Assembly: GCA_902605215.1 (NCBI GenBank)
Contig: CACLBX010000004.1
Coordinates: 1-50,344, forward strand
Direction: 5' to 3'
Origin: an uncultured Pelagibacteraceae bacterium
GTDB taxonomy: Bacteria; Pseudomonadota; Alphaproteobacteria; Pelagibacterales; AG-422-B15
Length of the DNA: 50,344 nucleotides
Each line of letters opens with the position of its first letter. Within the stretch, counting starts at the first letter, position 1. A program made the translations under genes and the position numbers. The notes under the pieces were generated by a model. That model saw only the letters and a list, made by a program, of their open reading frames with translations. It was not told the origin of the DNA and ran no database searches. Positions 11,019-14,439 of the stretch are shown in pieces.

Positions 11019-11708
11019 ATGAGAAATCTAAATTGTCTTATTACAGGCGCCTCATCTGGAATTGGGGCAAGTATTGCTCAGGAGTTATCAAAGAAAGTTA
11101 AACACATATATATTCTGTCACGTAATGCATCTAAATTAGAAGAGATAAATGATATAATAATTTCAAATGGATGTGAATGTACAATTGTTCCAATTGATTT
11201 ATGTAAACCCAATGTAATAGAAAATCTTTCTGAAGAAATATTTAAAAAAGATAGGTTTTTAGATATTATTGTATCATCTGCGGGCCAAATAACTAAATTA
11301 TCGCCCGTAGAATCAATTGACCTAAATGAATTCAATGACACTATCAAGTTAAACTATATTTCTAATTTTAGAATCATGAAACATTTTCACCCATTACTGA
11401 AAAATTCTAAAAAATCTAACTTTATTATTATCTCTTCAATTAAAAATGAAATGCAATCTCAATATTGGGGTATATATCAACCAATCATGACAGCGTTAAA
11501 TGAATTGGTCATAAGTTTTGCCAATGAAAATAAAGGTACCTCTATAAATGCCAATATTATCTATCCAGGTGCGGTAAATACTAAATTTAGGGAAAACATT
11601 ATGCCTGGCGAGAATAAAAAGGAAATAAAAAATCCAGGTGATGTAGCAAGAGTGGTTGTAAATTTCTTACTATCAAACGAAAAGAGTGGTGAGATTATAA
11701 AGCTTTAG
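11019..11708 (+). CDS. SDR-family protein with degenerate catalytic motif
   Basis: Rossmann TGASSGIGASIA and ISS are present, but the YxxxK position reads YQPIM and NNAG reads SSAG. Confidence 0.8.
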   Translation: MRNLNCLITGASSGIGASIAQELSKKVKHIYILSRNASKLEEINDIIISNGCECTIVPIDLCKPNVIENLSEEIFKKDRFLDIIVSSAGQITKLSPVESIDLNEFNDTIKLNYISNFRIMKHFHPLLKNSKKSNFIIISSIKNEMQSQYWGIYQPIMTALNELVISFANENKGTSINANIIYPGAVNTKFRENIMPGENKKEIKNPGDVARVVVNFLLSNEKSGEIIKL

Positions 11709-12538
11709 TCTGAATAAGGATTACTGGAGCTTATAAATTGATAAGAAATAGGCACTCCTTTTATTTTAAAAAAATCCCTAAATGCATTATCAAAGAATCT
11801 TTGGAATATTAGAGGCGCTTTCTTTTTAGAATTAATAAAAACCTTAAAAAGTGGAGAGCCAGTCTTTATTTGTACAATGTACTTTGGCTTAATTTCTCTT
11901 TTTTTTATTTTTGGATATTTTGATTGTTTATTCAAATAATTAAGGAATTTATTTAAATTAGTTTTTGTGATTTCAACATGGACAAGTTTATTTTTGTTTA
12001 TAATTTGTTTTATAAAATTCTTAATTCTAATGTTTTTCTTTGCAGAAATGAAATCAGTGTTTATCATTTGATATTGACTGTAATTATTACTTAAAAATTT
12101 TTCTATCTTAGTTTTAAACTTCTTTCCCTCATCAATAAGATCCATCTTATTAAACAAAAAAAATATTATCTTTTTTTTTGTTATAGCCAAATCAGCCAAC
12201 CTAAAATCTTGCTTGGTAATGCTTTCAACAGAATCTATGAGTAAAATTACTACGTCAACCTTGTCAACAAGTGTTATAACTTCCTTGTTTCTATTCTTTT
12301 CATCCAGATCATTGATCTTACTTTTTCGCCTCAGTCCTGGAGTATCAAAAATTGTAAAATCGTAACTATACAAAGTAAATTTATCTTTAAACAACTTCTT
12401 TGTAAGTCCGTATTCATCACCTACTGGAGAAATACTGTCTTCAAGTAAACAGTTAAATAGAGTTGATTTACCTGAATTCGGTTTGCCAATAATACAAAAA
12501 TTTATTTTATTCAAAGTGGAAGACATTGGAATTTTCAT
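11705..12538 (-). CDS. der: Der/EngA-like GTPase containing a single G domain plus KH-like C-terminus
   Basis: G1 GKPNSGKST, G3 DTPGLRRKSKI, G4 NKMD, G5 SAK, then a Der-like C-terminal domain (FQRFFDNAFRDFFKIKGVPISYQF). Lies immediately downstream of bamB and a yfgM-like gene. Likely start is this ATG or the one at 12526. Confidence 0.8.
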   Translation of the reverse strand: MKIPMSSTLNKINFCIIGKPNSGKSTLFNCLLEDSISPVGDEYGLTKKLFKDKFTLYSYDFTIFDTPGLRRKSKINDLDEKNRNKEVITLVDKVDVVILLIDSVESITKQDFRLADLAITKKKIIFFLFNKMDLIDEGKKFKTKIEKFLSNNYSQYQMINTDFISAKKNIRIKNFIKQIINKNKLVHVEITKTNLNKFLNYLNKQSKYPKIKKREIKPKYIVQIKTGSPLFKVFINSKKKAPLIFQRFFDNAFRDFFKIKGVPISYQFISSSNPYSD

Positions 12539-13805
12539 CCATTATAAATACTGCATTACTCAATATAACTGGTGGCAATATAATGCCTTTTACACCTAGA
12601 CTGTCAGTTGACAATGCTTCGCCTGTCATTGGTGATACAATTTTTAATTCGCCAAAGTAAGAAAAATTATATAATAAATTATTAATTAAATATGGTCCTA
12701 GCCACAAATTCAGATCCTTTGCTTTTTGACCTTTTTTAAATTTATTAAGTTCTGTAATCCAAAAAACTTCACCAGTATTTTTATTTAAACAAATAAGTTT
12801 TCCATCTTCATCAATGACATATACCTGACCTCCTGAAACAGTTGGTGTCCTGTATCCTGACAGGTCTATTGCCCAATTCCTTTTTCCATTAATAGCATTT
12901 GTCGATATCAATTTGCCGTTAGTGCTAACAGAAAAAATTGTATTACTTGATAAGACCGGACTAGCTGAAATATCTTTAATATCAAAATTACTCAATAATG
13001 AGATTTTTGAGACATTCTCTGACCACAACGGTCTGCCAGTGTCATTATCAAAAGCAACTAGTTCACCATTACTAAATGGAGCAATGATTATGTTCTCAAA
13101 ACCTATTGGAGAAGCTGTAATGAGACTCTTCTTATCTTCTGCCACAGTTTGAAACGACCACTCTACGTCACCTGTCTCGAGTGAAAGTGAAAATAATCGA
13201 TTATCTGATGATATGAATAAAATCTGATTTCTATAAATTAGCGGTGGAGATAATATGGGAAATTCAATTTTTTTCTCCCATATTTTATTTCCATCACTAG
13301 AGTCAACAAGCAAAATCTGCCCGTAAGCGTCAACTAACACTATCTTATCATCAAAATAAGCAAGTCCACCTCTTATAACTTCATACTTTTTATTGGCATC
13401 AACTTTAATATCAATTGAAAATATTTTTTCATTACTTTTATGATTTTTACATTCTAAGAAACCTTTGGGCAAAACGTAGCAAATCGAATCATTAAAATAA
13501 ATTGGCTGGATTATGTTAAGAGCTCCTCTTGTTCCAGAAACAATCTTTGTCTTATCTTTTAAGGAAGATAAAGTGAATATGTTATTTAAATTATTTCCAG
13601 GATTTTGAAAATGCTGCGACCAATAATTTATTTCCTTTGGTGGATCTATTCTTATATCTTCTATGTTTAGACCTAGGGTTTCTGAGATCTCTGCGTCATA
13701 AGCCAATATAGGGAAACTATTTGTATCTTTCTCTATTATTTCATTTTTTGTACAACTAAATATTACAAATGTTGATAGTAAAATAATATATAAAATATTT
13801 CTCAT
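12507..13805 (-). CDS. bamB: BamB-like PQQ beta-propeller lipoprotein
   Basis: Lipoprotein signal MRNILYIILLSTFVIFSC; repeated PQQ-like segments (GDVEWSFQT, GRPLWSENV, GKRNWAIDL, GEVFWITEL); synteny with der. Confidence 0.85.
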   Translation of the reverse strand: MRNILYIILLSTFVIFSCTKNEIIEKDTNSFPILAYDAEISETLGLNIEDIRIDPPKEINYWSQHFQNPGNNLNNIFTLSSLKDKTKIVSGTRGALNIIQPIYFNDSICYVLPKGFLECKNHKSNEKIFSIDIKVDANKKYEVIRGGLAYFDDKIVLVDAYGQILLVDSSDGNKIWEKKIEFPILSPPLIYRNQILFISSDNRLFSLSLETGDVEWSFQTVAEDKKSLITASPIGFENIIIAPFSNGELVAFDNDTGRPLWSENVSKISLLSNFDIKDISASPVLSSNTIFSVSTNGKLISTNAINGKRNWAIDLSGYRTPTVSGGQVYVIDEDGKLICLNKNTGEVFWITELNKFKKGQKAKDLNLWLGPYLINNLLYNFSYFGELKIVSPMTGEALSTDSLGVKGIILPPVILSNAVFIMDENSNVFHFE

Positions 13806-13806
13806 A

Positions 13807-14439
13807 CTATTTAATTGTGTCTAAAAATTTAGTTGCTCTAATAACAATATCTCTTGGAGTATTTGTATCATTAATTAGTTCGTCAAATTTTTCTTTAGAT
13901 ATTTGAAATTTACCTGATAATAAATTTTTGATAGCAATAGTTTCTTTAAAAAGAAATTTAAAAGAACTATTTTCTAATTTATCACTGTTAATATATATAT
14001 TTATTTCATCCATCGCTATGTCATTTAAATTACTCATTAAATAAAAATAGATAGCCAGGTCAGTTATGATGTCATCTGTTTTGTCTTCATTAATTATTTC
14101 TAAAAGCTTGTCTTTGCTTTCTTGTATTTTTCCATTTTCCATTAATAGAGTTGCAATTTTTATTTGCGCAATACCTGAAATAAGTAATTGATTTGAATTT
14201 TCAATTTCACCTAGAGTTTCAATCGTTTGAGTAAAATCTACTAAATCTGAAGAATCAATATATTTCTCTACTTCTTCCTCATAAAATGACTGATTTACCG
14301 ACTTATTAATTTGATAACCAAGTACCGAACCAATTAATAAAATTAGTCCGCCAATTAGATAAACACGGTAACGTCTCCACAAATTTATTAGACGATCCTG
14401 TCTTAATTCTTCATCAACTTGCCTTAAAATATCTGACAT
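13807..14439 (-). CDS. YfgM/TPR-like tetratricopeptide membrane protein
   Basis: N-terminal EVDEELRQDRLINLWRRYRVYLIGGLILLIGSVLGY followed by helical repeats; upstream of bamB-der. Confidence 0.75.
   Translation of the reverse strand: MSDILRQVDEELRQDRLINLWRRYRVYLIGGLILLIGSVLGYQINKSVNQSFYEEEVEKYIDSSDLVDFTQTIETLGEIENSNQLLISGIAQIKIATLLMENGKIQESKDKLLEIINEDKTDDIITDLAIYFYLMSNLNDIAMDEINIYINSDKLENSSFKFLFKETIAIKNLLSGKFQISKEKFDELINDTNTPRDIVIRATKFLDTIK

Follow-up and report, generated by a model that had tools for sequence, protein, structure and literature searches.

A Der/EngA GTPase of SAR11 bacteria that retains only the second G domain and the KH domain

The der locus and its gene model

Here we describe a short der gene on a contig of an uncultured Pelagibacteraceae bacterium (CACLBX010000004.1); the window, as we call it, is the whole stretch of DNA that was analysed, 50,344 nucleotides long. 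Elsewhere Der nearly always has two GTP-binding halves, a first and a second G domain (GD1 and GD2), and across part of SAR11 the first half is gone. The short gene lies directly behind bamB, as follows:

13807..14439, minus strand: YfgM-like protein, upstream of bamB, named by inference from position and topology
12507..13805, minus strand: bamB, directly upstream of der with a 32 nt overlap (TIGR03300, 157 bits; PF13360, 9.6e-41)
11705..12538, minus strand: der reduced to GD2-KH, ATG start, 277 aa, with Der profile and KH matches
12526, minus strand: alternative der start (MSS...), 4 codons downstream, giving a product of 273 aa
11019..11708, plus strand: short-chain dehydrogenase, convergent with der and covering the last 4 nt of its ORF (PF00106, 1.7e-31)

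The TIGR03300 match of BamB covers most of the model, and a Pfam search of the YfgM-like protein gave no match. The alternative der start is equally likely, because some relatives begin there. An earlier note on this DNA had held that bamB fills the space upstream of der, so that no first G domain is concealed there by a frameshift, and the gene model bears this out: an in-frame TAA stop stands two codons 5′ of the first ATG, which together with the bamB overlap leaves no room for GD1. GD1 and GD2-KH segments of alphaproteobacterial Ders were made into profiles, with which the whole window was also searched in six frames. The short der ORF was the sole match above background (205.8 bits with the GD2-KH profile, 88.3 bits with the GD1 profile), and the six frames held no separate GD1 signal beyond that ORF itself, so that a hidden or frameshifted GD1 upstream of the gene was rejected.

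Domain content, motifs and predicted fold

Within the 277 aa, Pfam, TIGR03594 and the ORF coordinates agree on the single G domain and Der-like KH domain that had first been read from the ORF. These parts and their motifs are arranged as follows:

11993..12508, minus strand: G domain, orthologous to Der GD2, residues 11-182 (GD2 profile above GD1 profile, TIGR03594 match from position 174)
12461..12487, minus strand: G1/P-loop GKPNSGKST, residues 18-26, including the potassium-loop Asn21
12401..12409, minus strand: G2/switch I GLT, residues 44-46, with an invariant T46 that aligns with GTTRD of full Der
12335..12346, minus strand: G3 DTPG, residues 65-68, followed by Leu69 (the HAS-GTPase position) and the RRK segment
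12140..12151, minus strand: G4 NKMD, residues 130-133
11735..11971, minus strand: EngA-type KH domain, residues 190-268 (PF14714, 52 bits, cut-off 27.3), with KH secondary structure in the AlphaFold2 model

Pfam places its one G domain (MMR_HSR1) at residues 14-131. When the protein was compared with the Der model TIGR03594, as the earlier note had proposed, only the GD2 and KH part matched: residues 10-268 correspond to model positions 174-431 of 432, at 193 bits. The cut-off of 306.7 bits is set for the two-domain protein; the short Der, with nothing to match the start of the model, stays below it. Taken feature by feature, the window protein has GD2 in place of the two tandem G domains that mark a Der, together with the GD2 sequence family and its G1-G4 motifs, the EngA-type C-terminal KH domain and the orthologous position behind bamB.

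That the remaining G domain is the second one was likewise claimed earlier, from the RRK segment after DTPG. This segment is indeed common to the window protein and Der, and the G domain taken alone scores 133 bits with the GD2 profile and 90 bits with the GD1 profile, a preference for GD2 seen in all of the single-domain proteins tested (about 50). The closest solved structures by sequence are EngA/Der, where the GD2 stretch scores 110 bits and the GD1 stretch 50 bits. The size and single G domain of the window protein are Era-like, and the idea that another single-G family (Era, MnmE or EngB) has been mistaken for Der nevertheless has a negligible chance of being right: Era models match the G domain only, at 53-74 bits and below their cut-offs (TIGR00436, 53 bits against 116, residues 15-185), and the MnmE profile reaches 72 bits against 253 (residues 12-204), whereas the Der model runs across G domain and KH domain, the KH domain is of the EngA type, and Era is a separate gene in relatives of the window genome. 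These results, with the GD2 preference, refute an Era, MnmE or EngB identity; the EngA/Der nearest structures and the bamB adjacency further uphold the earlier assignment to Der rather than to Era, TrmE (MnmE) or another single-G family.

The G1/P-loop is retained in single-domain and full-length GD2s alike, and of the positions conserved to 85% or more in full-length GD2-KH, 17 are kept in both SAR11 groups. Sixteen of them lie in the G domain (G18, P20, N21, G23, K24, S25, T26, N29, G44, T46, D65, G68, D111, N130, K131 and D133), nearly all within nucleotide-binding motifs, and F234 is the single one in the KH domain. The switch I segment had been described as GDEYGLTKKLF in place of the usual AGTTRD-type motif. 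The oddity is mild: the neighbouring R/D is now K/K, but the motif is not a different one, since GDEYGLTKK aligns with AGTTRD and its G2 threonine, T46, does not vary. Several near-invariant residues of full Der are replaced, among them R47, D48, A67 and T192 (the last in the KH region), and these replacements are consistent with altered contacts after the loss of GD1, a link that we infer. DTPG-Leu69 and Asn21 suggest a HAS-GTPase, in which a hydrophobic residue replaces the catalytic Gln and the K-loop holds an Asn; the role of an Asn21-type residue in the potassium loop comes from the known K+ mechanism of MnmE and EngA (PMC3466195).

A structure prediction, also among the checks first suggested for this gene, gave an AlphaFold2 model with pLDDT 83 and pTM 0.81 that folds like the GD2-KH half of ribosome-bound Der. 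Its best PDB matches are Der on 45S particles, 9bsl_W (rmsd 2.4) and 9bs0_W (rmsd 2.1), with TM 0.84 by query length, and the predicted arrangement of GD2 and KH thus resembles the ribosome-bound one.

Spread, neighbourhood and loss of the short Der

A single-domain Der was found in 48 of the 297 genomes of the order Pelagibacterales, and a two-domain Der above the Der cut-off in none of the 297; the two-domain cut-off was passed by 363 of 386 genomes in a sample of the class and by 394 of 398 in a sample of the phylum. Most genomes of the window's family have the short form, as do several genera of the second SAR11 family, and identity between the families is about 25-32%. Because it stands behind bamB in both sampled families, complete genomes included, it is no assembly artefact, and it is a trait of the SAR11 order across both of them, not the peculiarity of one genome. 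Two genera, g2 and g5, are presumably SAR11 subclade IIIa isolates. A single-domain Der also occurs in the single cell SCGC AAA028-D10, which PMC6234284 lists as LD12 (SAR11 subclade IIIb); this Der shares 94% identity with the one found in genus g4 of family f2. The closed genome of the LD12 isolate LSUCC0530 measures 1.16 Mbp (PMC6018831).

Could the missing half be encoded elsewhere, either as a separate GD1 protein or as a full Der in the part of the genome that did not assemble? At 53% completeness, the genome of the window says little by its lack of a full Der; however, none of four complete single-contig genomes with the single-domain form has another Der, and where Der-like G-domain ORFs of relatives were examined they proved to be Era and MnmE rather than a free-standing GD1. 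The possibility of a second, full-length der had been raised from the start, and none came to light in the window's genome, the complete relatives or the 297 genomes of the order. With the profile search finding no full Der and the Der-like ORFs examined being Era or MnmE, both versions were rejected, and we regard this explanation as very improbable. A wider profile search of contigs returned mostly ordinary two-domain Ders, which were used as alignment depth, the exceptions being the LD12 record and one contig (PBVH01000004.1) of the MAG 'Flavobacteriales bacterium RS431'. This MAG holds the SAR11-type single-domain Der on that contig and a normal full-length Der besides, and is mixed or mislabelled, since it carries both forms.

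The surroundings of the gene are shared as well. The order panB-yfgM-bamB-der is common to both SAR11 families, and the SAR11 der is convergent with a dehydrogenase or purF, followed by cvpA and an MMPL-type transporter. Among alphaproteobacterial loci of two-domain der, bamB lies directly upstream in 47 of 67, and thus the short gene sits exactly where der belongs.

Part of the order has gone further. Der and the EngA KH domain are absent from genera g3 and g6 (10 genomes, 98-100% complete), and ObgE was found in all 10 of these. Genus g3, with its many complete genomes, appears to be Pelagibacter-like. In six complete g3 genomes der is missing and bamB is directly followed by a protein of 141-145 aa (GRKKVVLDRGPSHP...), an AFG1-like ATPase and UPF0047; Pfam names for these genes were tested in one of the six, and the protein of 141-145 aa had no Pfam match. 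The earlier note had called Der essential in model bacteria, where this is proven; with the whole gene absent from these sister genera, it does not hold throughout this order. The same note's view of GD1 loss as a notable minimalisation stands, the loss being confirmed, and in part of the order the end point is complete loss of Der.

Other reductions were observed outside SAR11. One case is f23, a small order of the Alphaproteobacteria represented by six genomes from two genera: four of these have a Der, and in all four it consists of GD2 and KH only. The short der of f23 also lies directly behind bamB, in the order yfgM-bamB-der and with an identical convergent block. Family f30, which belongs to the same order as f127 and is putatively HIMB59-like, has a two-domain Der that has lost the NKxD of GD1 (FKKIN, FNQLD or FKKID), and from its sequence this decayed GD1 is probably a pseudo-GTPase domain. 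The reverse pattern may occur in family f17 (genomes of 0.6-0.8 Mb), whose two-domain Ders score 241-253 bits, below the Der cut-off, and where two of three have no clear NKxD in GD2 by motif scan alone. A genome of family f130 (100% complete, 1.2 Mb) has no Der match at E 1e-40, its best Der-like match being a 304-aa ORF that covers model positions 3-164 and is probably Era; it is another candidate for full loss of Der, outside SAR11. Phylogeny with other reduced alphaproteobacteria, again as proposed at the outset, was run as GD2-KH trees, which have long branches; in AU tests several constrained groupings of SAR11, f23 and the HIMB59-like sequences gave p 0.34-0.48, values compatible with one shared origin of the reduction as well as with separate ones.

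What the short Der may do, and known systems compared

We think it probable that the window gene is the SAR11 der/engA, reduced in place to GD2 and KH by the loss of GD1, and most likely still a GTPase of late 50S assembly. Domain content, orthology, spread, conservation of the catalytic motifs, selection and the predicted fold form the observed basis of this reading; the 50S binding, the assembly role and the GTP cycle of the short Der are proposed by analogy. In E. coli, EngA has its GD1 by the L1 stalk and its GD2 in the P-site space, with KH pointing toward the peptidyl transferase centre (PMC13278734). The GD2-KH fragment on its own binds nucleotides and is a slow GTPase that K+ strongly stimulates; with a GTP analogue it has been reported on mainly the 50S subunit (PMC3466195). 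When G4 is mutated in either domain of the E. coli protein, so that one G4-intact domain is left, cells grow at 42 °C and do not grow at 30 °C (PMC3466195). By this analogy, GTP-bound GD2-KH would bind the immature 50S subunit in its P-site space, with the KH domain reaching toward the peptidyl transferase centre, and K+-stimulated GTP hydrolysis would release it; the L1-stalk part, GD1, and its two-nucleotide control would be absent, leaving a single GTP switch. In other SAR11 genera the remaining GD2-KH half was lost too.

Several observations weigh against this reading. Without K+, the GTPase activity of B. subtilis GD2-KH is about 150-fold below that of GD1. In E. coli, mutating the P-loop of either G domain severely impairs growth, and both G domains are reported necessary for ribosome binding in vitro (PMC3466195). 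The identity between the SAR11 families is low, with R47, D48, A67 and T192 replaced, and the whole-gene loss in sister genera shows Der to be dispensable. The strongest rival is that the short Der has left the 50S subunit and been recruited to another job, which might be a part in some different RNA process, a task at the membrane together with BamB, or work on the 30S subunit. Its KH and switch residues are unlike those of full Der and its gene is bound up with bamB; yet the model matches ribosome-bound Der in the arrangement of GD2 and KH, and the bamB link is ancestral and common to ordinary der, and therefore no sign of a new role. We consider such a change of function unlikely.

Slightly less likely still is that the gene is being lost and encodes a Der in decay that retains little function, as the loss from the two sister genera and the long branches in the trees might suggest. 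Against this, the frame is intact and the motifs are retained, and comparison of the window gene with its 12 closest relatives gives dN/dS values of 0.06-0.11 (541 pairs in all have a median of 0.16): the short Der is under purifying selection with its catalytic motifs kept. It is also retained in most of the window's family, in several genera of the other, and in LD12 with its small genome, where useless genes should not last.

Returning to a working GTPase reduced in place, we lean, with less assurance, towards a stepwise dismantling of Der: GD1, the L1-stalk half, would have been lost in the SAR11 common ancestor, leaving a single-switch factor for the P site and peptidyl transferase centre, the rest would have been lost in Pelagibacter-like genera, and one or more other lineages of the Alphaproteobacteria would independently have lost GD1 or let it decay. 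If this is true, 50S assembly in some of the sea's most abundant bacteria runs without Der, nature can separate GD1 from GD2 as modules, and bacteria can shrink and later discard a GTPase that model species cannot live without. Two G domains are what defines a Der, and a single-switch form that has arisen naturally and is under selection bears on why two are needed. A cultured isolate (LD12) belongs to the lineages with this form, as subclade IIIa isolates probably do too, and relatives that have no Der stand beside them. The natural series of two domains, a decayed GD1, no GD1 and no Der bears on the role of GD1 at the L1 stalk and on 50S assembly without it. Within the open-access literature that was searched, there was no earlier report of a natural Der with one G domain, or of Der in SAR11.

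Among known systems, the two-domain Der/EngA (YphC) is like the window protein in GD2, KH, catalytic motifs, the RRK segment after DxxG and the order bamB-der; the window protein differs in having no GD1 and linker, in its length of about 277 against about 450 aa, and in its diverged KH and switch residues. Era also has one G domain followed by a KH-type domain and a similar length, whereas its KH type and sequence family differ and it is a separate gene in relatives. In Patescibacteria/CPR der is also absent from reduced bacteria, according to a 30,000-genome survey of ribosome biogenesis factors (PMC12641178); in the passages of it that were consulted Der is scored as present or absent by whole gene, a GD1-less form is not described, and a text search found no mention of SAR11 or Pelagibacter. 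The mitochondrial EngA of kinetoplastids (6yxx_EA, 7aoi_XL, 7am2_BU) matches the GD2-KH fold with TM 0.81-0.87 by query length and, unlike the window protein, is a much longer mitochondrial protein seen in a mitoribosome assembly intermediate. The engineered GD2-KH fragments of EngA from B. subtilis and others (PMC3466195) are identical to the window protein in domain content; these were made in the laboratory, whereas the SAR11 form was made by evolution and is the sole Der in its genome.
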